Source: Parafrankia irregularis (lineage in GTDB: Bacteria > Actinomycetota > Actinomycetes > Frankiales > Frankiaceae). From it: DNA of 64,000 nucleotides. The number at the start of each line of letters is the position of its first letter. Position 1 is the stretch's first letter. A model generated the notes under the pieces. That model saw only the letters and a program-made list of their open reading frames with translations. It did no database searches and was not told the DNA's origin. The DNA is taken from assembly GCF_001536285.1 (NCBI RefSeq), contig NZ_FAOZ01000005.1, positions 113,813-177,812 of the forward strand. Direction: 5' to 3'. This document shows, piece by piece, positions 25,957 to 50,127 of the stretch. The position numbers and the translations under genes are program-made.

Positions 25957-25979
25957 GCACCTGATCCGGTGGTGCGGGC

Positions 25980-28900
25980 TCAGCAGCGGTCAGCCCGTTT
26001 CAGGGCGACCAGCGCGGTCCGCAGCGTCGTGGCGGCGGCCGGGGCCGCGTTCGCGCCTCCGGTGAGATGGCCACCGGCGGGTGCCTTCAGGTAGACCGCC
26101 ACCACGACCTCCGGCTCCTCGGCCGGGGCGAACGCCACCGTCCAGGCGTTGGTGTCGGGGTTGGCCGAGGGCGGCCCGGTCTCCGGCGTTCCGGTCTTCG
26201 CGGCGACCTGGGCGCAGGGAACGGCGGCCCCCTTCGCCGTGCCCGCGTTCACGGCCTCGACCATGCCGGTTCGGATCATCTCGGCGTTCTCCGGCGGGAT
26301 GACCGGCCGCGACTGACCCGCGGGTGCCTTCCACAGGACGGAGCCGTCCCGCTCGACCTGCTCGACGATGTGCGGTGGACGCAGCTGGCCTCCCGCGGCG
26401 ACAGCCGCGGCGACCAGCGCCATCTGCAGCGGCGTCGCGTAGACGCAGGCCTGGCCGATCGCCAGGTGCTCCGGCAGGCAGCGCTCGCCGTCGGCGGTGC
26501 CGGACTCGACGGAGGACACGTCGACGGACAGGCCGTCCAGGTCGCACTGGTGCTTTCCAATCGGCTCCAGCCCGAGGGCCCGGCAGGCGGACGCGGCACC
26601 CGACCTGTCCGCGGGCTGCCCGGCAGGCCTGTCGCCGGGCTGGCCACCAGGCTGGCCACCGGGTCTGTCAGCGGGCTGGCCACCGGGTCTGTCAGCGGGC
26701 TGGCCGCCGGGTCTGTCAGCGGGGCCGGGGCCGGGCGTGCTGAACCCGAAGGCGGCCGCCGCCTGGGTGATGCCTTCCGGGCCGATGTCCTTGCCGACCA
26801 CGGCGAAGGCGGTGTTGCAGGACTGGCGCAGCGCGTCCACCAGAGCCGGGATCCCGACCATGTCCCTGTTGGGGCAGATGCTTCCGCCGAAGTTCCGCAG
26901 CGAATGGCCGTCCGGCAGGGGCAGGCTGCTGTGTGGCGCCAGGTGGTAGGCGTTCAGCCTGGCCGGGTCGATGGCGGCAGCGGTGACGATCTTGAACACC
27001 GAGCCGGGCTGGCTGGCGTCCCCGGTGACGGTGGTCGCGAGGTCGTCGTCGGCGGCGATGGCCAACACACCTCCGGTGCGTGGGTCCAGGGCGACGACGG
27101 CGCCGCGGGATCCCGGAGCGGCCTGCTTCGCCTCCGCCAGCGCGCGGACCGCCGCCTCCTGGATCTCGGCGTTGTACGACGTCCGCACGTCTGCGGGCTG
27201 GCATCGCTGCCCCAGCAGACCGCGCGGGCCGGCCAGGCCCTCCTCCGGCCGGGTGCCGCATTCGAGCTGCAGCGCCCAGGTGTTCTCCAGCCCGGTGCCG
27301 TCGGTGTCCTTCCTGGACGGCCGGAAATCACCGATCGGCAGGCCCGTGGACGTCCCGTGGCGGGTCGCGTCGACGCCGGACCCGACCGTTGCGGCGAGAA
27401 CCATGCCGTCGGCGGAGAGGATCCGGCCCCGGTTGAACGTCGCCCGCTCGGTGCGGGCGATCCCGCGGCCGCGGTCGTGGTCGCCCAGCCAGGCGCCGGC
27501 GGTGATCAGCTGCGCGTTCAGCAGCGAGCCGGCGGTGAGGAGTGCCAGCAGCCCGGCGAGTGCCGGCGCCCGCCAGGTCAGCGGCGACCGACGCCCGGCC
27601 CTCGTCACGTGACGGCCGGCCGCGCCGCTCGGACCGGGAGCGACGGAACCGGGAACAGGGGCGGAAGCGGCGGCGGCGGAGGCGGCTGGCCTGGGGCCGG
27701 CGCAGCCCGCGGCCAGCCCCACGATGCCGAGCACCACCAGCATGGACGTCCCACCGGCCGAGAGCAGCGGGGTGGTGATGCCGGAGATCGGCAGCACCCT
27801 GGTCGTCGCCAGCGCCGGCCAGACGATGTTGGCGGCCAGCATGACGGAAAGCCCGACCAGCCAGGCCCGCAGCCAGGACTCCTCACCGGCCCGCCGGGCC
27901 AGCCGGAACAGCTGGATGAGCAGCAGGGCGTACAGGGCACCGGTCAGCAGGGTGCCGACGAGGCCGAGCTCCTCACCGAGCACGGCGAGGATGAAGTCGT
28001 TCTGGCGCTCGGTGCCGATGCTGTCCACCCGGCCGAGGCCCGGCCCGGCGCCGAGCAGCCCGCCGCGGGCGTAGGCGAGCAGCGCCTTCCCGGGCTGTTG
28101 CAGCGCCCGCCCCGAGCCGTGTTCGCCCATGTAGAAGGGGTCTTTCCAGAGGGCGAGCCGGTCGCCCAGCACACCGACGCCCAGCAGCATCGCGACCGCT
28201 GCCAGCACCGCGAACGAGGCGGTCGCCGCCGCGGCGTAGCGCCAGCGGCCGGTGAGGTGGACGACCAGGCCGACGATGCCGATGAAGAGCACCACCGCCG
28301 GCCCGAGGTCGGAGAGCTTGACGAAGAGCGCGGTGGCCACCATGGCCGGTACCAGCGCGTACTCGATCAGTGCCCGGCCGGCCCCGGGGGGCCGGTAGGA
28401 GCCGAACAGGCGGGGGGCGTCCGGCGGCGCCTTCAGCCGGAACGCGATCCAGCCGAGCAGGCTGAACCGGAACACCTCGGTCGGCTGGACGTGCAGCGGG
28501 CCCAGCGTGAGGCCGATCTGGGCGCCCCGCTCGATGGGTGCTCTCAGCGCCAGCACACCGGACACGACCACCAGGATGAGCAGCGCGTTTCCAGTACGCG
28601 CGTTCCGTCTGATCCACCGGTTCCGCGCCGGGCCCTCCCGGCGCCGGTCGGTCTGCGCGAGCGACCGGCCCAGGTGGAACAGCCCGACGCCGACGGCGAC
28701 GGCGACCAGGTAGGCGCCGAGCGAGATCTGGTCCCCGACACCGACCCGCATCCGCAGGACGAACCCGAGCGCCGTGAGCGCCTGGACGGTGACCACCAGC
28801 AGGCCGAGGGCCGGGTCGCCGACGCGGCGGGCGCCCCGGAGCAGGAGCACCGTGATCACGGTGTGGAGGGCGACGGTGGCCACGGCCCACATCGGGTCCA

Positions 28901-29039
28901 CCATGGCCGGCCGGTGCCACCAGAGGGCGAAGACCAGCGCGGCGAAGAACAGGCCCGGCCACGCGGCGCGCGAGGGCGCGACCGGGTCCCGCGATCGACG
29001 TCCGCCCACCGTGCCGAAACCCGTGGCGGCGGTGCTCAC
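25980..29039 (-). CDS. SEDS polymerase fused to class B penicillin-binding protein
   Basis: A 1019-residue natural fusion of the two halves of a peptidoglycan synthase. Residues about 27-450 are a multi-pass FtsW/RodA (SEDS) domain with QPTE (185-188), SDLGPA (243-248), GGLLGAGPGLG (326-336) and NDFILAVLGEELG (347-359). A linker and one membrane segment (about 491-511) lead to the PBP part: RGRILSADG pedestal motif (538-546), active-site SVFK (680-683), SCN (740-742) and KTG (948-950). Between SCN and KTG sits an insert of DRPGGQPA-like repeats (about 776-812, DNA 26607-26714). The GTG start overlaps the GAP1 stop by four bases (GTGA), so it is translationally coupled to the GTPase operon. 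It polymerises and crosslinks wall, presumably at a special stage or site. Confidence 0.9.
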   Translation of the reverse strand: MSTAATGFGTVGGRRSRDPVAPSRAAWPGLFFAALVFALWWHRPAMVDPMWAVATVALHTVITVLLLRGARRVGDPALGLLVVTVQALTALGFVLRMRVGVGDQISLGAYLVAVAVGVGLFHLGRSLAQTDRRREGPARNRWIRRNARTGNALLILVVVSGVLALRAPIERGAQIGLTLGPLHVQPTEVFRFSLLGWIAFRLKAPPDAPRLFGSYRPPGAGRALIEYALVPAMVATALFVKLSDLGPAVVLFIGIVGLVVHLTGRWRYAAAATASFAVLAAVAMLLGVGVLGDRLALWKDPFYMGEHGSGRALQQPGKALLAYARGGLLGAGPGLGRVDSIGTERQNDFILAVLGEELGLVGTLLTGALYALLLIQLFRLARRAGEESWLRAWLVGLSVMLAANIVWPALATTRVLPISGITTPLLSAGGTSMLVVLGIVGLAAGCAGPRPAASAAAASAPVPGSVAPGPSGAAGRHVTRAGRRSPLTWRAPALAGLLALLTAGSLLNAQLITAGAWLGDHDRGRGIARTERATFNRGRILSADGMVLAATVGSGVDATRHGTSTGLPIGDFRPSRKDTDGTGLENTWALQLECGTRPEEGLAGPRGLLGQRCQPADVRTSYNAEIQEAAVRALAEAKQAAPGSRGAVVALDPRTGGVLAIAADDDLATTVTGDASQPGSVFKIVTAAAIDPARLNAYHLAPHSSLPLPDGHSLRNFGGSICPNRDMVGIPALVDALRQSCNTAFAVVGKDIGPEGITQAAAAFGFSTPGPGPADRPGGQPADRPGGQPADRPGGQPGGQPGDRPAGQPADRSGAASACRALGLEPIGKHQCDLDGLSVDVSSVESGTADGERCLPEHLAIGQACVYATPLQMALVAAAVAAGGQLRPPHIVEQVERDGSVLWKAPAGQSRPVIPPENAEMIRTGMVEAVNAGTAKGAAVPCAQVAAKTGTPETGPPSANPDTNAWTVAFAPAEEPEVVVAVYLKAPAGGHLTGGANAAPAAATTLRTALVALKRADRC

Positions 29040-31468
29040 GTGAGCAGCGGCAGGAAGATCGCGATGACGAGGACGGTCGCCCCGGCCATGCAGAGCCAGA
29101 AGATCAGCCAGCTTCTCCGGCGCTCGGCGTCCTCGGCGCGCATCTGGTCAAGTGGGTCGGGCGTCTGCGGGGTTCGCCTCTGTCGGCCCGGTGCCCGCCT
29201 GCCCGCGAGGCCGCTGGCGGGCGGCGGGGCCGCAGCGGCCTTCCGGGCCGCGGGCGCGTGCACGGCCGGAGGAGGCATCGGCCGGGACGGAGCGGCCGGC
29301 CGGCTCGTCCGCGCCGACCGGGGCGGAGCGGGCCTGCGCGGCTGGCGTTGGCGTGGGGTGAGCGGGGGGTGGCCGAGCCGCGCCAGCCACTGGTCGACGA
29401 CGAACGCGCTCAGCACCGGCTCGGCCGGCGGGGAGGTCGCCACGTCCCGCGCGACCGTCAGAAGCTCGGCGACCAGGCCCGGGGGGAGACCGTGCTGGAG
29501 GAGACCGCGCAGCTCCTCGGCGAACTGCCAGCCGCTGTCGGCGCGTGGATCTTCGAGCTCCGGCCGGAACAGCAGGTCGACCATCAGCCGGCGTTCCACG
29601 GCGGGCTCGGGCAGCAGCACGGCCCCCGGCAGCAGCACGGACTCCGGCAGCGCGGGCTCGGGCAGTTGCGCGGGCTCGGCCCACAGCGGGTCGAGCTTCG
29701 GGCCGACGAGGTGGCGGCGGATCTGCCCACGCGCCCTGGCGGGCTCGAGCACGCTGTCCGCGATGACTCGAGCGTCCCCGCCGTGCCCGAGCCGGTTGTT
29801 GAGCACGTGCAGCGTGACGGCCAGCGTGGTCGCCAGGGTTGCGGCGTCCGTCCCGGTGGGAAGCTGTTCGGCGACGCGGCCGAGCGGCACGCCGGCCAGC
29901 ACGAGCGCGAGCACCACCCCGAACTCCCGTCGCTGCGCCGGGTCGGGCAGGCCGGCCGGCGGGTGGTTCCCGGCCCACGGGCGGTCCCGGTCGGGGTGGC
30001 CGGCCTCGGCCCAGATCCTGATGGCGGTCTGCGCGGCGCGCAGCCGGCCGGCGGCGCCCGGCTCGCTCGCACCGATCCGCTCCCACCAGCGTTCCACGAC
30101 GGTCCGCACCGCGGCCGGACCGAGGCCGCATTCGCTCACCGCGCGCTGGATCGCGCGCTCGACGTTGCGATCGAGGTCGCCCACGCCCGGGTCGGGGCCG
30201 TCACCAGCGCCGGCCACGGAAGGCACGTCGTCCGACGCGGCGGCGAGGGACTCGTCGAGCACAGCCTCGACGAGTCGCTCACCGAGGATCGCCCACACGG
30301 GCTCGGCGGACGCCACCAGCACCGGGGCCGTCCCCATCCGCCAGCCGCTGCGCAGCCACCCGAAGCCGTCCGCGCGCAGGCGCCGTATCTCGTCACGCAG
30401 CAGCGCGGCGGTCTCCGGCCGCCCGATCTCGGCCGAGTCGCTTTCACCGCCGCGGCCCTGCAGCACCCGGCGCAGGGACCAGAGATGACCGGAGGCCGCC
30501 ATCGGCGCGCTCGCGGCGCGGACGACCCAGGGCGCCACGGCGGGCAGCGAGTCCGGAAGCGGATCGGCGAGCGCGCGGGCCACCCTGGTCATTCCGCCCG
30601 GCCCGTACTCCCGGTAGGCCTCCACCAGCTCGACGGCGACCTCCGCGGCGGCGCCGAAGTCCTCCGGCGGCAGCGCGGACCCGTATCGCACGCGCAGCCG
30701 GGTCTGCTCGAAGTCGGAGTGGCTTGTGCGGTCGAGGAAGATGTGCCGCAGCGGGGACCGGCGCTCCGCCGTCTCGGCGGTGGAGAACGACCAGTCGTGG
30801 CCGGGCAGTCCGCCCAGCAGGTCGTCGAGAACCTCGACGAGGCCGAACATCAGCGGGTCGACCCAGCCCGGGTATCCGACGGCGCTGACCTGGCCGGCCG
30901 GGTCGGCCAGCACTCCGGCCACCAGCTGGACCAGGGGTTCGTCCAGCTCCCGTGCGGCCACGGCGAGCCCGCGCAGCGACGCCTCGACGTCCGGGGTACG
31001 CAGTCCCGCCGCGGACGTCGGACGTCGCAGCCGGACGGCGTCGACCTGCCCGGCGGCTGGTCCGAGGCCGCCGTGCCACCCCGCCCCGAACCAGCGCGGC
31101 CAGGCCCGCAGGGCGAGCGCCAGGCGTGGCGGCAGGATGTGCTCCGGGCCGACGAGGGCATGCGCGAGGACCGAGACGCGGCCCTGCGGGTCGAGCGCGG
31201 GGACCCTGCGGATGACCGCCGCCTCCCCCTCGGCCTCGTCCGGCCCGAAGCGCAGGTAGCACAGCGATCCGTCCGGTCCCTGCCCGGAGGCGGCGAGCAC
31301 GGTGCTGAGCAGCCGCGTGTTCCAGGCCGCGAGTCGCCGCAGGTCCTCCAGCGAGGTCAGCGCCGGCCCGACGCCCTCCTGGCCGAGGGGCGACTGCTGG
31401 CCCGGCACCCAGTGGTAGACGATCTGATGGATCGGGTGCGGGTCGGCGGCGCTGCCAGGGCTGGACAC
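29036..31468 (-). CDS. GAP1-like GTPase-associated protein with C-terminal membrane anchor
   Basis: About 810 residues from GTG 31468, which overlaps the GTPase stop by one base region; an ATG at 31663 lies inside that gene. The N-terminal module starts HQIVYHWVPGQQSPLG and continues with a stretch around SLCYLRFGPDEAEGEAAVIRRV. This resembles the 'GTPase-associated protein 1' N-terminal family (GAP1-N2 by recalled Pfam name). A long helical middle follows, then a Pro/Arg-rich spacer and one C-terminal membrane helix near SWLIFWLCMAGATVLVIAIF. It sits between its GTPase and the SEDS-PBP gene, overlapping both. Likely role: partner or regulator of the GTPase at the membrane. Family assignment is from memory of patterns, not a search. 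Confidence 0.65.
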   Translation of the reverse strand: MSSPGSAADPHPIHQIVYHWVPGQQSPLGQEGVGPALTSLEDLRRLAAWNTRLLSTVLAASGQGPDGSLCYLRFGPDEAEGEAAVIRRVPALDPQGRVSVLAHALVGPEHILPPRLALALRAWPRWFGAGWHGGLGPAAGQVDAVRLRRPTSAAGLRTPDVEASLRGLAVAARELDEPLVQLVAGVLADPAGQVSAVGYPGWVDPLMFGLVEVLDDLLGGLPGHDWSFSTAETAERRSPLRHIFLDRTSHSDFEQTRLRVRYGSALPPEDFGAAAEVAVELVEAYREYGPGGMTRVARALADPLPDSLPAVAPWVVRAASAPMAASGHLWSLRRVLQGRGGESDSAEIGRPETAALLRDEIRRLRADGFGWLRSGWRMGTAPVLVASAEPVWAILGERLVEAVLDESLAAASDDVPSVAGAGDGPDPGVGDLDRNVERAIQRAVSECGLGPAAVRTVVERWWERIGASEPGAAGRLRAAQTAIRIWAEAGHPDRDRPWAGNHPPAGLPDPAQRREFGVVLALVLAGVPLGRVAEQLPTGTDAATLATTLAVTLHVLNNRLGHGGDARVIADSVLEPARARGQIRRHLVGPKLDPLWAEPAQLPEPALPESVLLPGAVLLPEPAVERRLMVDLLFRPELEDPRADSGWQFAEELRGLLQHGLPPGLVAELLTVARDVATSPPAEPVLSAFVVDQWLARLGHPPLTPRQRQPRRPAPPRSARTSRPAAPSRPMPPPAVHAPAARKAAAAPPPASGLAGRRAPGRQRRTPQTPDPLDQMRAEDAERRRSWLIFWLCMAGATVLVIAIFLPLLT

Positions 31469-31469
31469 G

Positions 31470-32600
31470 TCAGATGCCCACCTCTCCGGTCCGGTCACCG
31501 ACGAAGACCGCGCGGTCGATGATGCCGGCCATCGCCAGCACCGCCACCAGCGGTTCCAGTACCCGGTTGGGCTGGACGCGGCGGCGGTAGTACCCGGGCC
31601 GGTCGAGGGCTTCCTCGGTTCCGGTCGCCGAGGCGAAGTGCAGGGTCGCCCGCCGGCATTCACGTACCGGCGCGAGCCAGGCCGTGGCGTTCCGGCTGTA
31701 CAGCAGCCCGTAGGCGACGGTGCTCTCGTCCAGGATGTCGTCCAGGTCCACCTCGCCGCGGGTGCGCTCCCGGCGGTACCAGTCCTGGACCGGAGGCTGG
31801 AACCGCAGGACGTCCGACTTGTTCACGACGACGGCGGCGTCGATGTCGAACAGGCCGGTGCGCTGATCCATCCGGCCGACGAGCTTGAGCTTCCCGAGGA
31901 CGGCGTTGAAGGCCTCGTCGTCGATCTTCCCCGGGCGGCCCGCCAGCCCGCTGTGGTGCGGGTCCACGACGAAGACCAGGGCCCCCGCGGCGTTCACGAA
32001 ATCGGAGGAACGCCGGTTGCTGGCGAAATCCTCGCCCCGGATGTCGTAGAAGGTGACGAGACGGTCCCGCCGGGTCCGGAGATTGGTGATGATCACGGCG
32101 TCCACGAAGGACACCGCCTCGTCCTCCGGCGTCAGGGTGGCGGGCAGTACCGCCGACCTGCCCAGCAGCGGATCCACCTGGTCACGCACGTATTCGCGGT
32201 GCCGGCGCGGGTCGGCCACCGTCACCGACAGGCCGAGATCGTCGAGGCCCCGCTGGTTCACCAGCTGGCCTATCATCGCCGCCAGCAGGTGGCTCTTACC
32301 TACCGTCGTCGCCCCGACCATCCCTATGACGAACGGCTCGCCATACCAGCCGTAGGGGTAGAAGAGGTAGTGCGTCGGGTCCTTGAAGGGATTCGGGCAC
32401 CGGAGGTATTTGCTTGCCAGCCAGGCCTGGAAACGCCGCCGGTGCTGGTCCTGGTCGTCCTCCCGGAAACTGCGCAGGAGGCTTTCGTCGACGGGCTCGT
32501 ACACATCCCGTTCGGCGTCGTACTCGTAGAACTCGCCCTCGTACGCGTCCGGCCATTCATCGAAGACGTACAGGCAGATCGGGCATCGTACCTCAGCCAC
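31470..32600 (-). CDS. P-loop GTPase with N-terminal zinc-ribbon-like motif (double-GTPase type)
   Basis: A 376-residue GTPase. It begins with CPIC (Cys6, Cys9) and has a further CPNP at 68-71, suggesting a small metal knuckle. Walker A is GATTVGKS (96-103), the G3-like motif is DIRG (186-189) and the base-specificity motif is NKSD (260-263). It differs from the two other GTPases of this island, which lack the cysteines, and looks like the second subfamily of paired 'double' GTPases. It starts at ATG 32600. Directly upstream of GAP1 and downstream of a kinase-like gene, so probably a switch controlled by that kinase and read out by GAP1. Confidence 0.8.
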   Translation of the reverse strand: MAEVRCPICLYVFDEWPDAYEGEFYEYDAERDVYEPVDESLLRSFREDDQDQHRRRFQAWLASKYLRCPNPFKDPTHYLFYPYGWYGEPFVIGMVGATTVGKSHLLAAMIGQLVNQRGLDDLGLSVTVADPRRHREYVRDQVDPLLGRSAVLPATLTPEDEAVSFVDAVIITNLRTRRDRLVTFYDIRGEDFASNRRSSDFVNAAGALVFVVDPHHSGLAGRPGKIDDEAFNAVLGKLKLVGRMDQRTGLFDIDAAVVVNKSDVLRFQPPVQDWYRRERTRGEVDLDDILDESTVAYGLLYSRNATAWLAPVRECRRATLHFASATGTEEALDRPGYYRRRVQPNRVLEPLVAVLAMAGIIDRAVFVGDRTGEVGI

Positions 32601-32627
32601 AGCTCTGTCCCCCGTTCCTCACCACCG

Positions 32628-33920
32628 CTAGAGGCTGCCCAGACCGACGATCACCACAAGCAGGAACACCACGATCGTGACGATGGCGACGATCACCTTC
32701 ATGGCCAGATCACCCGAGACCGGGCCCGGTCCCGGTCCCGGTCCCAGATCCGGATACGGATCCGGTGGAGGCTGTCTGTGGGAAAGCGGCTCGTCGTGGG
32801 GTTGTTCGGGCCCGGGCCCGGGCCCGGGTTCGGGCCGGCGGCGGCTGTGGCCGGCCCGCCTGCGGCCCGGCGGAGGATACGACGGCGCAACCGGCGCCCG
32901 GCGCCATTCCTTGTCCTTCACCAGGCCGTTGAACCGGTCCCGCCCGGCCAGCATCCCCGCGGGGTCATACCGCGTCCGGTGCTCGGGCCGCCGTTCGCGC
33001 AGCCGCGCGAGCATTTCCGCCGCGACCACCGGGGAACCGGGCTCGAACACATCCGCGAAGAATCCCTCGGGAAACCAGGTCGAGATGTTCGGCTCGGTGA
33101 CGGACGAGCTTCCACCGGACCAGTCCGGGACCGAGTCCGGGTACTGCTGGTCGCCTCGGGACCAGTAGCCGTCGGCATCAGGGCGCCAGCTGCGCAGCGA
33201 CTCCGGCGGCTCGCCGGTCGCGGCGTGCAGGATGAGCCAGCAGGCGCGGGAGACGTCCTCGGTGAAATCGGCGATCAGGTCGGCGCGGGGCGGGTCCAGC
33301 GTGCTCCACGGCGGCGCTTCCACGTGCGGCCGGTGCGCCCCCGCCCAGCAGGCGTGGCTGAAGTCGAAGATGAGCGCGGTCTGGCCATCCCAGAGGATGT
33401 TCTCCGGGGTGAGGTCCCGGTGCACGATCTCGGCGGCCTGCAGCCAGTACAGCCCGTGGAACAGGCTGGCCGCGAGCCGACGGCATTCGTCCGCGCCCAG
33501 CGGACCCGCGCGCCGCAGCCGCCGCCCCAGCGTCTCGCCGTGGGACAGCGACGTCGTGAGGAAGAACGGGGCGTCGCCGTGCTCACTGAAACCGATCAGG
33601 CGGACGAGCTGGTCCGGGTACCGGAAGGGGCGGTGGCGGTCCGGGCGCGGCCCGTTGCGCTCCATGGCGTGCCAGAGGGTCAGCAGGATCTCGATCTCCG
33701 CGCGGAGATCCTCCGCGGCCTGCCCGTCGGCCGGGGAGACCCGCTTGCGGGCGACGGCCTGCGCCACACCGCCCGGACCGGGCAGCGTGCCGCGCTGCAC
33801 CTGGTACGGAGGCCCGCTGACCTCGTCCTCGGGGTCGAACTGCACCCACCAGCTCCCCCGGGGGCCTTCCGGGGTGTCACCGTCGATACCGCCGGCAAGG
33901 CCGCTGTCAGTCATGGTCAT
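32628..33920 (-). CDS. Membrane-anchored Ser/Thr protein kinase-like protein
   Basis: A 430-residue kinase-fold protein. The loop RGTLPGPGGVA (43-53) is followed by a candidate ATP-binding Lys59 in AVARKRV. The catalytic loop is HRDLTPEN (167-174). The metal-binding motif is DFS (186-188) instead of DFG. A Pro/Arg-rich spacer leads to a C-terminal membrane helix (about 408-426). HRD and Asn are kept, so activity is possible, but the altered DFG makes weak or pseudokinase behaviour possible too. It starts at ATG 33920, overlapping by 14 bases a 25-codon membrane-peptide frame. The GTPase gene follows after 27 bases. It may phosphorylate the GTPase or GAP1. Confidence 0.75.
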   Translation of the reverse strand: MTMTDSGLAGGIDGDTPEGPRGSWWVQFDPEDEVSGPPYQVQRGTLPGPGGVAQAVARKRVSPADGQAAEDLRAEIEILLTLWHAMERNGPRPDRHRPFRYPDQLVRLIGFSEHGDAPFFLTTSLSHGETLGRRLRRAGPLGADECRRLAASLFHGLYWLQAAEIVHRDLTPENILWDGQTALIFDFSHACWAGAHRPHVEAPPWSTLDPPRADLIADFTEDVSRACWLILHAATGEPPESLRSWRPDADGYWSRGDQQYPDSVPDWSGGSSSVTEPNISTWFPEGFFADVFEPGSPVVAAEMLARLRERRPEHRTRYDPAGMLAGRDRFNGLVKDKEWRRAPVAPSYPPPGRRRAGHSRRRPEPGPGPGPEQPHDEPLSHRQPPPDPYPDLGPGPGPGPVSGDLAMKVIVAIVTIVVFLLVVIVGLGSL

Positions 33921-33984
33921 GCACCGCCCACCAGGCGACGAACGCGACGTTCCCGAGCAGGAGCACCAACAGAGCCATCTGCAT
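33907..33984 (-). CDS. Candidate 25-residue single-pass membrane peptide
   Basis: An open frame of 25 codons: after MQMA it is almost entirely hydrophobic (LLVLLLGNVAFVAWW) and ends AVHDHD. It starts 12 bases after the stop of the upstream operon gene and ends 14 bases inside the kinase start, exactly the spacing seen between real genes here. The ribosome site is weak (GAGC eleven bases upstream). If made, it would be a one-helix membrane peptide that could assemble with the membrane anchors of the kinase and GAP1. The frame could also be chance. Confidence 0.4.
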   Translation of the reverse strand: MQMALLVLLLGNVAFVAWWAVHDHD

Positions 33985-33996
33985 GATCAATTCTGC

Positions 33997-34776
33997 TCAC
34001 CGGTGCCCCACGCTCGGCGCCGGCAACGCCCGCCCGGCCGTGTCGTCAAAGATGAACCAGCCCTGGTCCCAGAAGAGATTCAGCCAGGTGTGCCCCACCT
34101 GCAACGGGTAGCCCGGATCGCGGGGAGACAGCGTGACCTCCGCGACCAGCGGGGTGTCACCAACGACGGCCTGGTGACGCGGGTCCCGTGATGGGGTGAT
34201 CGTGACCCGGCCGTCGGGATTGACGCGGACCTCGGCATGCGCCTCGGCGGAGATGTGCGAGTCGCGCCGGCGCGAGACGCCGAACACCAGGTCCCGGTTG
34301 ATGACGGTGGCCGGTCCCAGCGACCGGGAGCGGTCCCGGCCGGAGTCCCGCGGGTCGGCGAGAAACGCCTGCAGGCCCCAGTCGGCCCGCGACTCGACCG
34401 TGAGCTGCGGACGGCCCTGCCGGACCCCGGGAGTGCCGTCGAGGATCACGGAGAAGTCGTCGTGGAACCAGACCTGTCGCCGGCCCTCCCGTTCGAGGGC
34501 GGCGGTGAGGACGTCCTGGACCGCCGGGCCCGCCTGGCTCAGCTCGAGCCCGAGAGTCCGTAACGACGTCTCGGCCCGCCTGGCATCGTCCGAGTTGAGC
34601 CGCACCCGCACCCGGCGGGGGGCGACGAGTGCCTCGCCGCAGGTCGCCCGCCGACTTTCGTCGAGTGTTCGCCAGGCGATCTGCTCCAGCACGTCAGATG
34701 AAGAGTGACCACGTGCGCTGACGGCCTTGTGCCTGGCCCATTCGCGTAAACGGTCCCATTCCGGCCCGAGTCTCAC
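33997..34776 (-). CDS. Unrecognised protein, first gene of the GTPase/SEDS-PBP operon
   Basis: About 259 residues from GTG 34776, which follows a GGGGGACAGG site; an ATG at 34818 would add 14 residues. I do not recognise the family. An N-terminal helical part (EWDRLREWARHKAVSARG) precedes a mixed region. The C-terminal half looks beta-rich, with alternating hydrophobic/polar strands, and ends in LNLFWDQGWFIFDD. No signal peptide or membrane helix. As the leading gene it may be a regulator or an adaptor of the system. Function should be left open. Confidence 0.6.
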   Translation of the reverse strand: MRLGPEWDRLREWARHKAVSARGHSSSDVLEQIAWRTLDESRRATCGEALVAPRRVRVRLNSDDARRAETSLRTLGLELSQAGPAVQDVLTAALEREGRRQVWFHDDFSVILDGTPGVRQGRPQLTVESRADWGLQAFLADPRDSGRDRSRSLGPATVINRDLVFGVSRRRDSHISAEAHAEVRVNPDGRVTITPSRDPRHQAVVGDTPLVAEVTLSPRDPGYPLQVGHTWLNLFWDQGWFIFDDTAGRALPAPSVGHR

Positions 34777-35073
34777 GCGCGCCTGTCCCCCATATACACA
34801 GCCGGCCCCCCGGTACACGAGCAGTGCAGATTGTCATCTTATGATGCGAAGATTACTCACAACAGTGAGGGTCCTGCGTCCGTCAGCACCCGGACAGCCG
34901 GCGGCAACGGCATCCCGGTCGCCGTCAGTAGCCGGGTTGGGCGTGACGATGATGGTAGATTTGCCCCGCCGCTGGCGGTTCTGCCCCAGTCGGTCACCGG
35001 ATCGGGGGCGGTACGGGGCACATGAGCAGCATCACCAGCAGCAGTACGGCGGGAGCCAGCCCGAGGTCCGGCC
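34777..35073. promoter_or_regulatory. Divergent control region of the GTPase island
   Basis: A 297-base gap between the minus-strand operon and the plus-strand GTPase gene. The stretch 34826-34866 is AT-rich against the GC-rich background and is the likeliest promoter area for either direction. No strong operator palindrome seen. Confidence 0.45.
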
Positions 35074-36243
35074 ATGGCGCCTAGCGGGTCGCCGGTCCAG
35101 CGGCGCATCGGGCTGTGGGGAGCCACCCAGAGCGGCAAGACGACCATGCTCGCCGCCCTGCAGATAGCCGCCGGCCAGCAGGTCCGAGAAGACCGCTGGA
35201 TGGTCATCGGGGCCAACCCGGCGTCGTCGACGTTCCTGAGCCGAAACGTCGACGTCCTGACCACGGACAAGAAGTTCCCGGTGGCGACGGAGGCCGCCGA
35301 GCCGCTCTCCTGGCTCTTCTACCGCCCGGACCCGGCGCCACGCGGGCTGAACGCGTGGCTGCGCAGGCGGTTGCGGCGCCCGCTGGCCACCGGCCAGCAG
35401 GTGTTCGAGGTCAACACGCTGGACGTCGGCGGCTACATGTTCCGCAACCATCTCGGCGAGGTTCTCGACGACCCCTACCACGACTACTACGACGACGAGG
35501 ACGAGGGGCTCCCGCTCTTCGACCCCGAGCAGACCGCGGGCGCGGACGCCGACGAGGTCATGCGCACCATGGCCGACTGCGACGGGCTGGTCTACCTGTT
35601 CGACCCGGTCACCGAGCACCGGGAACAGAACTCCTTCCAGTACTTCGCCCGGGTGCTCGACCAGATCGGCCGGCTGTCCCACGAATCCGGGCGGATCCGG
35701 AACGGACGGCTGCCGCACTACCTGGCGGTCTGCGTCAACAAGATCGACGATCCGGGTATCTACCGGGTGGCCAGCCAGAACGGCTACATGCTCAGCGGTG
35801 ACAACGACCTGCTGCTGCCCGAGGTGCCCCGCGAGTACGCCGCCGAACTCTTCGAGCGGCTGTGCGACGGCCGGGAGGCAGGCGGCGCCGCCCAGGTTCG
35901 CCGGATCATCCGTCGGTTCTTCGACCCCGATCGGGTGGCCTACTTCGCGACCTCGTCCATCGGGTTCTATGTGCAGCCGGGCCGGCTGTTCCGGCACCGC
36001 GACAACCAGAACGTGATCTCCGGGCCGGACGGACGCCCACGAATCCGCGGCGAAATCCGGCCGATCAACGTGCTCGAGCCGTTCCTGTGGCTGGAGGACG
36101 AGATCCGGCGGAACCCGCTGCCACCGCCGATCATCCCGGAACCCGCGGAATCCCCGGAATCCTCGGAATCCCCGGAGCCGGACTCGGAGCTGGACTCGGA
36201 TTTCTCGGACTTCACCCGGTCCGGCCCACCCCCAGACCTGTGA
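35074..36243 (+). CDS. P-loop GTPase (double-GTPase type), second of three
   Basis: A 389-residue GTPase. Walker A is GATQSGKT (16-23), the G3-like motif is DVGG (117-120) and the specificity motif is NKID (222-225). A C-terminal block FATSSIGFYV and RIRGEIRPINVLEPFLWLEDE closely parallels the third GTPase, so these two are paralogues, distinct from the zinc-ribbon GTPase. The last 30 residues are a Pro/Ser/Glu/Asp tail. ATG 35074 has GAGG eight bases upstream. Followed 38 bases later by a GAP1-like gene, giving a GTPase/GAP1 pair on the plus strand. Confidence 0.82.
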   Translation: MAPSGSPVQRRIGLWGATQSGKTTMLAALQIAAGQQVREDRWMVIGANPASSTFLSRNVDVLTTDKKFPVATEAAEPLSWLFYRPDPAPRGLNAWLRRRLRRPLATGQQVFEVNTLDVGGYMFRNHLGEVLDDPYHDYYDDEDEGLPLFDPEQTAGADADEVMRTMADCDGLVYLFDPVTEHREQNSFQYFARVLDQIGRLSHESGRIRNGRLPHYLAVCVNKIDDPGIYRVASQNGYMLSGDNDLLLPEVPREYAAELFERLCDGREAGGAAQVRRIIRRFFDPDRVAYFATSSIGFYVQPGRLFRHRDNQNVISGPDGRPRIRGEIRPINVLEPFLWLEDEIRRNPLPPPIIPEPAESPESSESPEPDSELDSDFSDFTRSGPPPDL

Positions 36244-36281
36244 GGCCAAAGCTGTGAGGCCAGGCCTGTGAGGCCGACGCT

Positions 36282-38387
36282 GTGAGCCCGCCGGCCGCAC
36301 CGCCCGGGCCGCCAACGCCGGGCGGGCCCACCCTGCGGGTCGGGTGGGCGCTCATGGGCAAGGAGCGCGGCGGTTTCACCGACTACGTCGTCCTCCGGTC
36401 GAACGAGGCCTACTTCAGCAGATCCGCCTACCAGACGATCCTGCACCGGTACTCCCCCGGAACACCGCCACACGCTCAGCGCACCAGCCTGCCCGGGTCG
36501 CTGCCCTGGGTGACGGTGAGCTACGCCCCACTCGGTCGCAACACCGGGCAGACCGTGCTCGGGATCGCCGAACGCACCTGGTCCGACGAGGCCGACGCGT
36601 CCGGGCGCCCGATCGCGCACACCCGCTACCTCTGCGTCCCGTTCAGCGCGCTCGCCGCCGCTCCGGTCTCCTACGCGGGCCTGCACACCGCTCTGGCCAG
36701 CCCGACGATCCAGCGCCCCATGCTCCAGCGCCCGATGCTCCAGCACTCGGCGACGGGAACCCAGCCCGCGGTGACGGCGACCGCCGTGGGCAGCCTGCCC
36801 GTCACCGTGCCGCGCCTCGACCCGGCACGGATCGCCGAAAGCCTGGCCACCGACGACGAGCAGTGGTTCTTACTGGCAGCCGAGGCCGCGGCGCTCGTCC
36901 TGGCCGGCAGGGTGGCCATCCTCGGTTTCCCGGCCCCCAGCCGCGACGAGCCGACCGCGCGGACGCGGCTGCGATTCCTCGACGCGGTAGCGGCGCTGCT
37001 GCCCTACGGCCAGCGGGCCCGGCTGACCGCCAGCACCTGGGCGGTCAGCGGCGCCGCTCACCGGATCCGGCTCGCCTTCACCGACCAGCCCCGCCAGGGT
37101 GACCTGGTTCTGCGCTGGCGCGACCCGCGACCGCGGCCCGCCCAGCTGCCGGGCCCAGCCGCCGACTACTTCGATCTGCTGCTGCGGCTGCGCGACCAGG
37201 CAGGCGGATCACTGGCCGCCCTCGTCACCCATCTCACCGGCTACCCGACCGCCTACCCCGCCGCCTGGCATCGACTCAGGGCGACCGCACGCGCCTACTT
37301 CCACCTGCACGAGATGGGCGGGGGCGACACCGCCGACGCGCTGGCCGCCCTGGTCGCCCGGCGGCTGGCCCCGGGCCGGTTGTTGCCTGACACCGCCCCG
37401 ACGGACACGGACGCCGAGCAGTGGCAGGCCGTCCAGGAGAAGGCGGTGGAGGAGGTCGCCGAGCTGGTGCGCGCCGCCTGGGACGACGAGCGGCCGCGCG
37501 ACGACGACGCGACGCGGAGGTTCAGCCGGCGGCTGCTCGCCGTGGTCGCGCAGGTGCCCCGGGACGACCTCGCCCTCGAGCTGATCCGCCTGGCCGTTCT
37601 CGACGACCTCGGCCTCGAGGGCGCCCTGAACACAGGCACAGGCACAGCCATGGACGCAGGAACCGCCGGCGAGCGGCAGGCGACGGCGTCGACGCGACGC
37701 TGGCTGCGCTGGCTGGAGGTCGCGCCCGAGCTCGCCGACCAGACGCGCCCCTTCCGCGCCGTTCTCGACGGCTCCCCCAACCCGGACGTCGTCGAAACGC
37801 TGCACGGCCGGGCCCGCTACCTGCTGTCGCTCTCCCAGCTCGCCCGGCTCCGCGGCACCGGCGCCGCCATGGTGGTCCTGCTGGATCCCTGGCTGTGGCA
37901 GACCGTCCCAGCCCTGTCGCCGCGGCACCGGCAGGACTGGGCCGCCGAGATCCGCGGCTTCCGCTTCGGCACCCCGAGCAGGGCGGCCCGCTACGACGTA
38001 CTCCTGCTGATCCTGGGCGAAGCCCCCGGCAGGCCGTTGGGACGCCGGATCAGCACGATGGCGACGGACTACACGGCGGCGTTCCAGGAGCACTTCGCCA
38101 CCCTGGTGCGGGAGCAGGGGGCGGATGGGCGGGTCGACCAGGCCCTGACCGCCCTGGCCCGCTCCATCCTCGACACCGGCTGGCCTCAGGACGAGGCGCA
38201 GGTGGACCTCATGCTCAGGGTGCTGGAGCAGCTCGTCCGCCTGGTCCAGGCCAACATCGACCAGCGTGATCGGCCACCCGGGCTGGCCGTTCTGATCAAG
38301 GTGGTCGGCCGTTTCCTGATCAGGAACCCGTGGGCCAGAAACCTGCCAGCCGGCCGGCAGTGGCGTATCTGGCTACCGAAAATCTGA
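36282..38387 (+). CDS. GAP1-like GTPase-associated protein
   Basis: A 701-residue protein starting at GTG 36282. The N-terminal module begins LRVGWALMGKERGGFTDY and includes LPWVTVSYAP and a conserved YLCVPFSAL stretch. A second module has RLRFLDAVAALLPYGQRARL followed by HRIRLAFT. Both modules recur in the 1166-residue protein of the second operon, so the two are paralogues. The rest is helical with no membrane segment. The region before the start holds four imperfect CTGTGAGGCC-like repeats (36238-36287), each with a potential GTG. It lies next to its partner GTPase. Assignment to the GAP1 family is from recalled patterns. Confidence 0.65.
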   Translation: MSPPAAPPGPPTPGGPTLRVGWALMGKERGGFTDYVVLRSNEAYFSRSAYQTILHRYSPGTPPHAQRTSLPGSLPWVTVSYAPLGRNTGQTVLGIAERTWSDEADASGRPIAHTRYLCVPFSALAAAPVSYAGLHTALASPTIQRPMLQRPMLQHSATGTQPAVTATAVGSLPVTVPRLDPARIAESLATDDEQWFLLAAEAAALVLAGRVAILGFPAPSRDEPTARTRLRFLDAVAALLPYGQRARLTASTWAVSGAAHRIRLAFTDQPRQGDLVLRWRDPRPRPAQLPGPAADYFDLLLRLRDQAGGSLAALVTHLTGYPTAYPAAWHRLRATARAYFHLHEMGGGDTADALAALVARRLAPGRLLPDTAPTDTDAEQWQAVQEKAVEEVAELVRAAWDDERPRDDDATRRFSRRLLAVVAQVPRDDLALELIRLAVLDDLGLEGALNTGTGTAMDAGTAGERQATASTRRWLRWLEVAPELADQTRPFRAVLDGSPNPDVVETLHGRARYLLSLSQLARLRGTGAAMVVLLDPWLWQTVPALSPRHRQDWAAEIRGFRFGTPSRAARYDVLLLILGEAPGRPLGRRISTMATDYTAAFQEHFATLVREQGADGRVDQALTALARSILDTGWPQDEAQVDLMLRVLEQLVRLVQANIDQRDRPPGLAVLIKVVGRFLIRNPWARNLPAGRQWRIWLPKI

Positions 38388-38431
38388 CCGGGAGACCTGC
38401 CGCCGAGGAGGCGGAGGCCGCGAGCGAACAA

Positions 38432-38469
38432 CGGAGGATTCTGGTCGTTCCAACGACCAGAATCCTCCG
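38432..38469. repeat. Intergenic hairpin repeat, copy F (perfect stem)
   Basis: Eighteen-base perfect arms (beginning CGGAGGATTCTGG and ending CCAGAATCCTCCG) around a two-base CC loop, in the 153-base gap between the GAP1-like gene and the lipoprotein gene. The GAGGATT...AATCCTC core matches the other copies. The left flank and GGCAGC tail are missing. Confidence 0.75.
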
Positions 38470-38540
38470 GTCCAGTGTTCGTGCCCCGTTCCCAGGTGCA
38501 GGATCGAACCTGCGTTGACCCGCACAGGGAAGGTTGCTTC

Positions 38541-39281: not shown

Positions 39282-39358
39282 CGCCTGGATCCGCGGCCTG
39301 CGCGGGAGTGCCGGACCGACGCCAGGTCACCGAAGTGCCGACGTTGCCTGACGCGGCG

Positions 39359-41097
<1,739 letters not shown>

Positions 41098-41101
<4 letters not shown>

Positions 41102-44100
41102 CTGGGCGGCCCCGCCACGGCGGCGGCACTCGAACCGGCGGCCCCGCTCCGCAGGAACGAGTCCACCAGTGCTGGGCGAGTGTGATGCAGGGCCCTCAGC
41201 AGTTGGGCGAACCGGCCCGGCGGCCCGTGCCGTTCGCCGTAGCGGGCGATCTGCAGCGCGGCCAACAGCGCATCATCCCCATGGACCGCCAGCAGCCGCA
41301 GGTCGATCGGCGCGGGACGCGGGGTCGCCAGCGCCTGGAAGACGGCCAGCGGCGGCGGCAGCTGCCCGCTCGGCGGAGTGAGCCAGCGGAGCCACCCGCC
41401 CTGCGCGGCGTTCAGCGCCGCGAAGCTGCCCGACCTGGTGAGATGGATGATCCAGGAGACCGCGGCCTCGGGCAGCTCCTGCAGCGCCGCCCGGACGGCC
41501 TCTCCGCCGCCGGAAAGCTGCAGCAGCAGGAGCGCTCCCGCGTGCGTGCGTGCGACCCGGTCGTTGTCCCTCCCGTCGCCGCGGATCAGTCGGGCGAGGA
41601 TGCCGTCGAGGCGCTGGAACGTCTCGAGGCGGTTGGCGAACACGATGGCGTCCTGCAGGTCGGCCATGGTGCCGCCGGAGAGCAGGATCCGCAGGGCGTC
41701 GGCCTCCTCGGGCTCCCGGGCGAACCTGCCGGCCATCGCCGCCCGCCGTCGGCTGCGGGCCTTCTCCAGGCTTTTGCTGGCCGGCAGCGGGGAGACGAAG
41801 GCAGGGTTCGTGTCGGTGAGCACGTCGAGCAGGTCCTCGGCCTGGTCGACGTCCAGTGGGTCACGCCAGGTGGACAACGCGTGGACCAGGCCGGCGGTGT
41901 CCTGGAAGAGGGTGCGGGCCGCCAGCAGGCGGCGGAAGTACTCACGGCCGTAGCCGCTCGGCGGCTCCGCGGCTTCCGGCAGGTCACCCCAGCGAACCAG
42001 CAGCCTCGACTGCCCGCTGGAGATCTGCGCCTGGGCGGTGAAGGCCAGCCGGAACGGGGTCGGGTTGTCGGTCGCGGTGGTCACGGCCACCCCGGCGAGC
42101 AGACCGGCCGGCAGCAGGGCGAGCACTCCCTCGATGAAGCGCAGGCGCTGCTCGGTGGTCAGGGCCGGCGGGGCGCCGACCACCGACACCGGGCCGTCGA
42201 GCAGCCCGGCGGCGACGGCGGCGACCGCGCCGAAGCCGAACGCGTCGACGTCCTGGGCACCCAGGCGCTGGTCGGCGGCGACGAGTTGCAGCCGGCTCGG
42301 CCGGGAGCCGGACGACGCCGACGCGGCGGCCGCGAGGCCCAGGCCGGTGATGCCGACCCCCGAATCCAGGAACCGCGCGAGGCCGGTGTGGCAGCACCAG
42401 TCCGCGCCGCACACCGCGAGCCGCCCACCGCCGTCACCGAACAGCACCAGCCCGTCGGACGTCCCGCCCGGTGGCCCGTCGCGGCGCACGCCGGGGGTGT
42501 ACAGCCGGGCGAGCTCCCAGATTCCGCGGCCGTCCGCCGAAGCGGGCTGCGGTGACGGGGCCGGGTCGACCCAGCCGGCGCCGAGCTGGACGCGGGTGCC
42601 CGCCGCCAGCCGGGACGACGGGTCGTCTGGCGCCGCCTCGCCGTCGGTGGGCTCCGTGTTCCGGCGGAGCAGCCGGCGGCGGGCTTTGGGCTCGCCGATC
42701 AGCCTGCCGAGCCGCTGTCGCTCGTCGGCGCGGCGGTCCGGCCACAGCTCGTCCAGGGCAGCCGTCCAGGTTCTGCGGCGAGCGACGCTGAACGGAGCCC
42801 GGTCGGCTTCGGCCCACAGCCATTCCTCGAGCGCCGGTGTCAGCGCCTCGGCCCGGCCGCTCCACCCGGCGAGCCGGACGACGGTCAGCATCGCCGCCTC
42901 ACCGATCCCGTCCGCGGCACCGACCGCGGTGAGATCCGGGTGGCCGACGGACTCCTGGCTGTTGCCGCCCAGCACGCGGAACGGGCGCAGCACCGCGTCG
43001 GTCTGCGGCTGCCCGGCGGCGGCCAGCCACTCCACCAGCTGGAGCAGCCCGGGCACCCCCCGGCTGGCGAAGTACCGCACCAGTACCTGCAGGGTGCGCG
43101 CCGGGCTGGCGGCGAGCCCGTTGCGGACCGGGGCCCAGGTCGCCCGGTCCCCGGTCGCCCCTCCGTGCTCCCGGATGATGTCCGCGGCGAGCTCGACCGC
43201 GTCCGCCGGCGGCGGGTCGTCGTCCGTTCCCGGTTCCAGCAGCCCGCCGACGATCGCGGCGAACATCGCCTCGGGGGCACCCTGCAGGTGCGAGGCCAGG
43301 TCCCGGTATTCCCGCCCACCCGCGGCGCAGAGCCGGACCACGAGGTCGACCACCGCCGGGGCCAGCGCCGGGGCCCAGTGGCGGGCGACCAGGGTGAGGT
43401 CCTCCGGCCGGGCGAACGGCAGAAGCAGCGGGACGAGGACGCCGGTCGGGTCCGCCGGCGCGGGCAGGGCGGCCAGGTGCCGCCGGAGGTGCTCCGGGCC
43501 TGCCCTCCCGGCGGCGAACCGGGTGGCCAGGTCCAGCGCGGCGGTCTCCGTGAGAGCCTGGAAGATCTCCCCGGGCCGGCTGAAACTGCGCGGTGTGGTG
43601 TCCTCGGCAAGCCATCCCAGGACTGTGCGCAACCCGCCGTCGCCGTCGCCGTGGCTGTGGTCGTGGCTGTGGTCGTGGCCGAGCCCGTGGTCTCGGGCGG
43701 GGGCGAGCCCGTTGTCACGGCCCGCGTCGTGGCCGAGCCCGTGACCGGCGCCGTGGTCGGCCGGCCGGTTGCCGTCGATCAGGTAGGCCAGCAGGGAGGC
43801 GTAGCGGGGAGCCCATTCGTCGTTCGGGTTCGGCGGGCCGAACCGCGGGGGTGCCGTCGGGTCGACCAGCCGGCCGGTGCCGCCGAGGTCCTGTCCGAAC
43901 GCGACGCGCAGCCGGTGGCTGGTCGCGACGTCGACCCAGGTACCGGCGGCGAGAGCGCCCTCGGCGCCGGCCGGCAGCAGCGCGGCCACCAGATCGAGAA
44001 AGGCGATCCGGGCCGAATGGGTGGCCAGCTCGGGTACGGGACGCACCACGACCGGACCGTCCAGTGCCAACGCGGCGGTGACGACCGCGCCGCGCAGGAA

Positions 44101-44598
44101 ACGCAGGGCCGGGCTGGCCAGTGCACCCGCGCGGCGAGGCGGCGACGCGGCGGGGCGCAGGGACAGCGCCTGGCCGCCCGTGACCTCGGGAAGCCGGCGC
44201 AGCTGGCTCACGGTCGCCACCCGCACCGCCTCGTACAGCGCCGTGAAACTCCCCAGGTGACGGCGGAAGTCGTCCAGCGGCAGGCAGAAGAAGCGGGTGG
44301 GGATGACGACCCGGCCGGTGGCGTCGACCGCCATGGCCGGGTCCGCGGGCCATTCGCGGATCGCGACTCCCACGTAGGGCGTCTCGCCGGACGTCGCGGC
44401 GGTGAAGGTGATCCACGGCAGCGCGTCCGGCTCGCCCGCGCGCTCACCGGCCGGCGAGCCGGGCGAGAAATGCTGGATGATGCGTTCCAGCGTCGCCGGT
44501 CGAAGCCGGGCCCCGCCGGCGCACAGGATCTGGTAGTCCTCGCGCTGCCCGGGCTCCTTGCCCAGCAGCGCCCATTCGAAGCCGACGGTGCCGGTCAC
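41098..44598 (-). CDS. Large GAP1-like protein with internally duplicated module
   Basis: A 1166-residue protein, GTG start overlapping the GTPase stop (GTGA). The N-terminus (GFEWALLGKEPGQREDY, then LPWITFTAATSG and FFCLPLDDF) parallels the plus-strand GAP1 protein. The module with RIAFLDLVAALLPAGAEGAL...HRLRVAFG recurs in the C-terminal half as RLRFIEGVLALLPAGLLAGV...FRLAFT, which indicates internal duplication. Between them lies a His/Asp/Gly-rich insert with DHSHDHSHGDGDGG that could bind metal or be disordered. The remaining helical parts are unrecognised. Likely scaffold or GTPase partner. No membrane helix. Confidence 0.65.
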
Positions 44599-45731
44599 CG
44601 GCGCTCCCCGTTGATCCGGGTCACCAGGCCCACGACCGGCTCCAGGACGTTCATCGGCGCCACCCGGCCGCGGATGCGGGGCACCCCACCGGTCATCACG
44701 ATGTTCGAGTAGTCGACGGGGTTGAACCGGCCGTCCGGGCCGACGAACAACCCGATGGAGGAAGTCGCGTAGAAGCGAACCCGCGACGGGTCGAAGAATC
44801 CGCCGATCGCGTCTCGTAGATGGGAGGCGCCGGTCGATCTGTTGCAGAGCTGATCGAAGTAGCGATGGGCGACATCGCTCTCAATCCTGGGCGGCCCCGA
44901 TCCGTTGGCCAGCGTGTTGAGCCTGCCGTCCAGGGCGACCCCGAGCACCCGGGGGTCGTCGAACTTCGTGACGCAGACGGCGAGGTGGTGCGGCAGCAGC
45001 CCACCCCGGCTTCGCCCCGCGGTGCGGACCTTCTCGAGCACACGGTTGATCATGGCATCGAAATAGGCGTAGTTGTCGCCGTCCGCGCGGTCCCGCTCCC
45101 GGATCGGGTCGAAGAGAAGGACGATCCCGTCGCAGCGGACCAGGTGGTCGACAAGCTCCTCGTGCTGCGCCGCGCCCCGGTCCGGAGGGCGGCGAGCCGG
45201 GGTCGGCGCGCTGGTCTCGTCGTCGTCGAACCTCAGCCCGTCGTCCTCGACGCCACCGCCACCGCCACCGCCACCGCTGCCGCTGCCGCTGCCGCCGTCC
45301 AGGGTGCTGATCTCACTGCCACCGCTTCCACCGCCCCGGTAGTACAACGCACCGGAGACGTCCAGGAAGTCGAGGGTGAAATCGATCGGCGGCGTGCGCT
45401 CAGGCCTCGGCCGCGCGGGACTCGAGCCCGGCCGCAGCACGCGGCCCTCGAAGATGAGCCGCAACGGTGTGTTGGCCAGCGTCGCCGGCGGGAAACGATG
45501 GTCCTGGACCAGGGTGCTCCGCAGCCTTTCCAATGCGCTTCCGGTCGCCCGGTCCGCGCTGGTGATGGTCCACCGGACGTGTCTGCCTCCCGGTTCGCGG
45601 GGCTTGTGCTGGATGGCGGCGAGCTGCATGGCGGCCATCAGGGTCGTCTTCCCGCTGCTCGTCGCTCCCCAGAGCCCGAGGCGCACCCGGCCCCGGGGCG
45701 ACGGGCGCGGGCCCGCCGGCGGACGCGTCAA
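44595..45731 (-). CDS. P-loop GTPase (double-GTPase type), third of three
   Basis: About 378 residues. The start is best placed at TTG 45731, overlapping the upstream stop in TTGA form; the frame is open to 46010 but that part overlaps the neighbouring gene. Walker A is GATSSGKT (22-29) and the G3-like stretch is LDVSGALYY. A Gly/Ser-rich insert follows. The specificity motif is TKFD where NKxD is usual. The C-terminal block YATSSIGLFV and RIRGRVAPMNVLEPVVGL matches the plus-strand GTPase. It forms a GTPase/GAP1 pair with the gene downstream. Loss of the Asn may alter nucleotide preference. Confidence 0.78.
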   Translation of the reverse strand: MTRPPAGPRPSPRGRVRLGLWGATSSGKTTLMAAMQLAAIQHKPREPGGRHVRWTITSADRATGSALERLRSTLVQDHRFPPATLANTPLRLIFEGRVLRPGSSPARPRPERTPPIDFTLDFLDVSGALYYRGGGSGGSEISTLDGGSGSGSGGGGGGGGVEDDGLRFDDDETSAPTPARRPPDRGAAQHEELVDHLVRCDGIVLLFDPIRERDRADGDNYAYFDAMINRVLEKVRTAGRSRGGLLPHHLAVCVTKFDDPRVLGVALDGRLNTLANGSGPPRIESDVAHRYFDQLCNRSTGASHLRDAIGGFFDPSRVRFYATSSIGLFVGPDGRFNPVDYSNIVMTGGVPRIRGRVAPMNVLEPVVGLVTRINGERR

Positions 45732-47779: not shown

Positions 47780-47847
47780 GAGTCGTCGAAGTCAGCCGCC
47801 CGGCCGGATCCCCGTCACGAACCGGCGGTACACACCCGCCGGTCTCG

Positions 47848-47885: not shown

Positions 47886-47904
47886 CCCGGTCACGCCTGG
47901 CTGG

Positions 47905-49512: not shown

Positions 49513-50127
49513 GACGCTCCCCGTTTACGCCATCTGTCGGTGTGGGTGGCCGGTGGCCCGCCCAGCCCGATGTTTCGCCCAGCCCGATGTTGAGGTGCCC
49601 CTCAGAGCCCCGCCCGCATTACCCCGCGGCCGCAGGGGCCGGCGGGATGTGTGCCGGCACCCGCCGGCCGGCGGCCTTGCCGCGCCACCCGACCACTCCC
49701 CTCCCCCGCGGGCCCGCCGCGGGGCGACCAACCATCGCTCCCGTGCAGGCAGCTTCAGACCGATGCGGCTCAGGTGTACGCAGCTCAGGCCGATGCACCC
49801 GACACCCGCATACCGACTCTCGGAATGAACGTACCGCACACCGCGGGCAAATCACAGCCGAGGCCGGGGCGCGAGCCCGGCCTATAACCGGGCCAGCAGG
49901 CAGAGCCTTTGCCTCATAGCAACCAAGGTTGGCCGCGAGGCCGACAACCACGCACCCGCTACACCTCCGCCCACGGTTGCCCTCTCTTTGGGAAATCCAC
50001 CGGGCTACGGACCGGAAGACCACGGCATCAACCGGCCGGCGGGCCTGCGAGCCACCCCGGACAGGCTCTGGCCAGCCTCCGAGCAAGCCCCGGACAGGGC
50101 CCGGCCAGCCACTATGATGGCTGCACT
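49513..50127. other. Divergent intergenic region between DUF4407 and kinase-WD40 genes
   Basis: A 615-base gap that should hold both promoters. It is GC-rich with mixed codon phase, and I see no convincing gene, operator or structured RNA in it. Open frames there overlap on several strands and show no family resemblance. Confidence 0.5.

Follow-up and report, generated by a model that had tools for sequence, protein, structure and literature searches.

A SEDS-class B PBP fusion coupled to a GTPase-GAP1-like operon in Parafrankia irregularis: a candidate signal-gated wall synthase

Gene organization of the locus

The window analyzed here comprises 64,000 nucleotides of the Parafrankia irregularis genome (contig NZ_FAOZ01000005.1, positions 113,813 to 177,812). 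An operon on its reverse strand (34818-25980) ends with a gene (25980..29039, 1019 aa) that encodes, in one frame, a RodA/FtsW-like SEDS protein followed by a PbpA-like class B PBP. A preliminary description had read this frame as a fusion of an FtsW/RodA-like domain with a class B PBP carrying SVFK, SCN and KTG, and both Pfam and motif analysis agree. FTSW_RODA_SPOVE was found at residues 154-442 (9e-38; 130.5 bits against a cut-off of 26.4) and the Transpeptidase domain was equally clear (7e-41; 140.9 bits against 22.1). The SEDS half retains QPTE and the catalytic Asp of ECL4 (QNDF, D348), which aligned with the canonical SEDS catalytic Asp and is equivalent to D297 of Escherichia coli FtsW (PMC8765783); SVFK, SCN and KTG are all present in the PBP half. 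Hydropathy analysis revealed approximately 10 TM helices and then a further TM segment (491-509) ahead of the PBP. The fusion thus has the features of a SEDS glycosyltransferase (a Pfam score above the cut-off and the ECL4 Asp) and of a class B PBP (Transpeptidase domain, SxxK, SxN, KTG and an N-terminal TM segment). The N-terminal approximately 70 positions of the SEDS model have diverged, and the nearest solved protein was M. tuberculosis PbpA. A PGGQPADR-type repeat insert of approximately 40 residues (about 776-815) lies between SCN and KTG and is absent from the fusions of two relatives (G003 and G005). Housekeeping FtsW, RodA with an adjoining PBP and a canonical FhaA-PP2C-RodA-PbpA-PknA-PknB operon were identified elsewhere in the same genome, so the fusion is an extra copy.

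The preceding gene (29036..31468, reverse strand) encodes a GAP1-like protein of 810 aa with one C-terminal TM segment (788-806). As previously described, the GTG start of the fusion lies inside the GAP1 stop codon: the junction, read directly as CTC ACG TGA / GTG AGC, is a four-base GTGA overlap (29036..29039). No match to the Pfam GAP1 models (GAP1-N2/M/C) was found for this protein at E<5, and the name GAP1 therefore rests on its position, its C-terminal TM segment and weak similarity to GAP1-position proteins of neighboring loci. Only 1 nt separates its start from the stop of a P-loop GTPase gene (31470..32600, reverse strand), whose product has an N-terminal CPIC motif and resembles DO-GTPase2 (PF19993; E 7e-5) with a score of 23.0 bits, which is under the curated cut-off of 27; it is treated here as a divergent relative of DO-GTPase2 and is not classed as a member. 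A scan of both strands of 25500-35300 that recognizes sigma-70-type sites only gave no promoter-like site, which is weak evidence, and the only two terminator-like matches, both on the forward strand inside coding sequence, are at chance level (1.7 expected in shuffled sequences).

Two upstream genes of the operon, both on the reverse strand, were overlooked in the preliminary description, as were the tubulin-linked sister loci described below. The first (32628..33920) encodes a Ser/Thr kinase with intact HRD/N/D residues (DFS) and a predicted C-terminal TM segment (409-427); judged by its HRD...N and D residues, it would be catalytic. The second (33997..34818) likely encodes an FhaA-like protein with an FhaA_N-like region and an FHA-fold domain. 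Its match to Pfam FhaA_N was weak (E 0.07), and its structure model, which is of low confidence (pLDDT 56), matched FHA domains (Foldseek E 6e-5; VIA-align Z 8-10, FhaA's own FHA domain 3oun/2lc1 being among them) and the FhaA N-terminal domain 2lc0 (Foldseek E 3.6e-3). Comparison with FhaA by hhalign gave no significant match, and the phosphate-binding residues of the FHA domain are partly changed in the window copy (AEAH versus TRRH in G003 and G005). Mycobacterial FhaA recognizes phosphorylation by PknB and has a role in wall synthesis (PMC11898655).

Divergently from the operon lie, on the forward strand, a second GTPase gene (GTPb, 35074..36243), also seen beside B-type loci (see below), and a second GAP1-like gene (GAPb, 36282..38387), whose product matched GAP1-M weakly (15.6 bits, below the cut-off of 24). 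They are followed on the reverse strand by genes for an HSP70/actin-fold-like ATPase (39359..41101, recognized by motif only, no Pfam match), a third GAP1-like protein (GAPc, 41098..44598), a third GTPase (GTPc, 44595..46010, true start probably inside the ORF), a zinc-ribbon protein (45728..47779) and a DUF4407 membrane protein (47905..49512) with relatives in two B-type loci as well. Thus 35074-49512 holds two more GTPase-GAP1-like pairs and an HSP70-like gene in one conserved block. The edge of the locus is marked by a protein kinase-WD40 gene on the forward strand (49909..52149).

Conservation in Frankiaceae and a degenerate sister family

Frankia and its relatives are filamentous, root-nodule bacteria. 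A survey of 35 Frankiaceae genomes identified related SEDS or SEDS-PBP genes in 13; one of these loci (G152) begins at a contig end, where the upstream side is unreadable, leaving 12 readable loci. The GTGA overlap was found in all 12 (three genera), and the coupling exceeds chance. This bears out the conservation of the junction that had been put forward as a check of the preliminary description; the observation that would have spoken against it, namely that most relatives have the fusion gene with no GTPase genes beside it, was not made in this family. Using a stricter threshold on a class-wide sample, members were found in Frankiaceae only (4 of 138 genomes). Two genomes outside the family (G063 and G116) have a GTPase-GAP1-like pair with no SEDS-PBP seen nearby; the G116 contig ends soon after. 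A scan of genome contigs with the fusion returned, besides one unrelated SEDS protein, only Parafrankia sp. EUN1f and Frankia sp. EI5c, both of which belong to a cluster now named Parafrankia (PMC9680954). Viral contigs scanned with the fusion yielded no relative, and a search of plasmid proteins yielded weak PBP-domain matches only.

The loci fall into two types. A-type loci are those of the window genome and three relatives (G001, G003 and G005), in which the order fusion-GAP1-GTPase-kinase-FhaA-like is followed by the divergent GTPb-GAPb pair. Two of them (G003 and G005) further share HSP70-like-GAPc-GTPc-ZnR-DUF4407 and the kinase-WD40 gene; the stretch read in G001 ends after GAPb. Window genes on the fusion-side flank were not found in the G003 and G005 stretches. 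All four A-type loci share an identical GTGA overlap while the fusion is only approximately 65-71% identical in G003 and G005, and G000, G003 and G005 do not differ in any catalytic motif of either enzyme half. All four kinases have HRDLTPEN, DFS (with S instead of G at the third position) and a C-terminal TM segment; the C-terminal TM segment of GAP1 is also retained in the relatives, and the FhaA-like gene was seen in A-type loci only. For the A-type sequences, the simple Nei-Gojobori method applied to this GC-rich DNA gave dN/dS values of approximately 0.34-0.54 (fusion), 0.20-0.37 (GTPase) and up to 0.85 (GAP1). The fusion of G001 (Parafrankia sp. EUN1f, draft genome) is frame-shifted in the SEDS-PBP linker (L018 7883-7913), which may reflect either an error in sequencing or the separation of the two halves into distinct proteins.

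In B-type loci (G002 and G004 in the genus of the window; G106, G117, G143, G147, G148 and G159 in the family), GTGA likewise links a GTPase-GAP1 pair to a gene for SEDS or SEDS-PBP, and GTPb and GAPb come next in several of them. The catalytic Asp of ECL4 was lost in all nine B-type SEDS proteins examined, the PBP parts that were read had neither SxxK nor KTG, and the SEDS protein of G004 has no PBP. These loci carry a pseudokinase: HRN, HRW, HRQ or HRM was found, with no predicted TM segment, in nine of nine B-type kinases (G006 included). On the basis of these motifs, kinase and synthase both look live in A-type loci and dead in B-type loci; it should be noted that, as A-type loci represent one lineage of four genomes, this is a single evolutionary contrast rather than many. 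A tubulin-like gene is present at six loci (G002, G004, G106, G117, G143 and G147), and tubulin-like proteins (L036 5782-9069 and L042 5153-8281) are linked to degenerate SEDS-PBP and GTPase-GAP1 in what resembles a divisome-like pseudoenzyme set. In G006 (L026 7477-11061), a GAP1-like protein is fused, after its TM segment, to a degenerate PBP transpeptidase domain. The PBP-like tail of G002 did not match the fusion significantly by hhalign; for the PBP-like part of G117, a low-confidence model (pLDDT 47) from an alignment including canonical PbpA gave a PbpA fold match that is supporting only. In the draft sequence of G002, an in-frame stop lies between the main part of GAP1 and the TM segment, and a candidate PASTA protein beside this locus proved to contain LytR_C instead.

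In the SEDS tree, which carries a long-branch warning throughout, a 100/99 branch separates the A- and B-type proteins from canonical RodA and FtsW, and the A-type proteins adjoin the canonical ones. The A-type proteins belong to neither the canonical RodA group nor the canonical FtsW group, and with the same warning a recent duplication of canonical rodA-pbpA was rejected. The tree grouping together with the shared GTGA junction favors one recruitment of a SEDS gene beside GAP1, with catalysis probably lost later in the B-type. That a duplicated rodA-pbpA pair landed by chance beside the GTPase operon is very improbable. Four-nucleotide overlaps are common in bacterial operons, and in this genome's canonical operon, too, the start of pbpA falls right at the end of rodA, but such an accident is contradicted by the adjacency in all 12 readable loci, which span three genera, and by the joint position of A- and B-type proteins in the tree.

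Comparison with known systems

The locus resembles the GAP1-N2-type DO-GTPase systems (Kaur et al. 2020, PMC7159879) in having a GTPase followed by GAP1 with a C-terminal TM segment, in being linked to genes for tubulin-like proteins, HSP70-like proteins and kinases, and in its occurrence in multicellular actinobacteria, whereas the window GAP1 gave no match to the Pfam GAP1 models. In the main text of that study, the terms FtsW, SEDS, penicillin and transpeptidase are absent. Second, the actinobacterial growth operon (fhaA-fhaB-pstP-rodA-pbpA-pknA-pknB) likewise combines an FhaA protein, Ser/Thr kinases and RodA and PbpA enzymes. However, the RodA- and PbpA-like parts are fused in the window, there is a single kinase without PASTA, no PP2C was seen in the operon, and a GTPase and GAP1 are added. 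The A-type operon, with its catalytic residues and the kinase HRD/N/D kept and an FhaA-like protein present, thus looks like a growth operon wired to GTPase/GAP1. Third, natural SEDS-PBP fusion ORFs are already known, and an engineered E. coli RodA-PBP2 fusion polymerizes lipid II and binds bocillin (PMC10449877). The window fusion shares with these the single ORF with SEDS first and PBP second, but its PBP is PbpA-like with a short N-terminal part, it is coupled to GTPase/GAP1 and it has a degenerate sister family. SEDS-PBP fusions and GTPase-GAP1 systems are therefore each known, and their linkage is what appears to be new, as no report of it was found in the open-access main texts that were searched. 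At somewhat less than even odds, the locus would represent a previously undescribed GTPase-gated wall synthase pathway, running from kinase to FHA reader to GTPase/GAP1 to one-chain SEDS-PBP, and the tubulin-associated loci of the same bacterial family would form a sister group whose kinase and synthase are both putative pseudoenzymes.

Proposed function and alternative explanations

SEDS-PBP synthases are usually activated by divisome or elongasome partners. On the basis of the observed gene content, tight overlap, conservation and intact catalytic residues, we propose at roughly even odds (about 0.5) that the A-type operon is a membrane signalling unit with a dedicated peptidoglycan synthase as its output, gated by kinase/FHA and GTPase; it suggests a private, signal-controlled wall-building machine in this lineage. 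We further infer how the parts would interact and in what order, and with what trigger and purpose: the membrane-anchored kinase would phosphorylate a partner, which the FhaA-like protein would read; the GTPase and the membrane-anchored GAP1 would form an on/off switch; GAP1, synthesized in step with the fusion, would hold or activate the one-chain synthase; and the latter would polymerize and crosslink wall locally when triggered, for example when a hypha is sealed, septated or patched under stress or attack. This gated synthase is supported by catalytic motifs that stay invariant at approximately 65-71% fusion identity with dN/dS of approximately 0.34-0.54, by the coupling to GAP1 in every readable locus and by the joint retention or joint loss of kinase and SEDS/PBP motifs. 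The FHA fold, with the FHA and N-terminal domains of FhaA among its matches, the growth operon of like gene types in this genome and in mycobacteria (PMC11898655), the activity of the engineered fusion (PMC10449877) and the presence of the fusion in addition to housekeeping genes argue in the same direction. The proposal is weakened by the single lineage of A-type loci, the altered FHA residues, the low confidence of the FhaA-like model, the lack of a significant FhaA profile match and the frame-shifted ORF of EUN1f.

GTPase-controlled wall synthesis had been suggested in the preliminary description, with septation, the spore or vesicle wall, or wall remodelling as a conflict output as speculative purposes. 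The tight, conserved coupling and the intact synthase motifs of the window lineage stand, but such synthesis cannot be the general function, since the synthase copy lacks active sites in most family members. As most relatives retain the module without catalysis, a non-catalytic role must be either ancestral or later sufficient. The strongest rival, because B-type copies persist without activity, is thus that SEDS-PBP is mainly a membrane- or wall-facing input or scaffold of GTPase-GAP1, binding for example lipid II or wall, and that enzyme activity in the A-type is secondary. Degenerate B-type proteins that remain coupled to GAP1 wherever the upstream side is readable, the direct fusion of a degenerate PBP to GAP1 in G006 and the wall-binding extracellular domains of published GAP1-N2 systems (PMC7159879) all fit this explanation. 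On the other hand, every catalytic motif is kept across substantial divergence in the A-type, where the kinase is intact too, and we consider a mainly sensing role plausible at appreciably less than even odds.

Another explanation, which overlaps with both, places the locus among the GTPase-GAP1 conflict systems of multicellular bacteria and has wall made or sensed during a response to invaders; gated synthase and sensor may each sit inside such a conflict or stress system. This is a credible reading that falls a little short of an even chance. It agrees with the family context predicted for GAP1-N2 systems (PMC7159879), the patchy presence (13 of 35 genomes), the fast evolution of GAP1 and the three GTPase-GAP1-like pairs at one locus, but the role of the whole GTPase-GAP1 class is itself a computational prediction, and PADLOC gave generic kinase-domain matches only. 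A known anti-phage defence system was rejected, as PADLOC found no system match.

If the gated-synthase proposal is true, coupling a synthase to a TRAFAC-type GTPase that has its own kinase and FHA protein would be a novel means of controlling where and when wall is made, and GTPase-GAP1 systems, whose function has so far only been predicted, would gain a concrete and assayable output. With one active and one pseudoenzyme family, nature also provides a control for telling catalytic from sensing roles. In addition, a second operon-type GTPase (78% identical) was observed in G001 (L035 9412-10554), with no recognizable GAP1 or fusion nearby.
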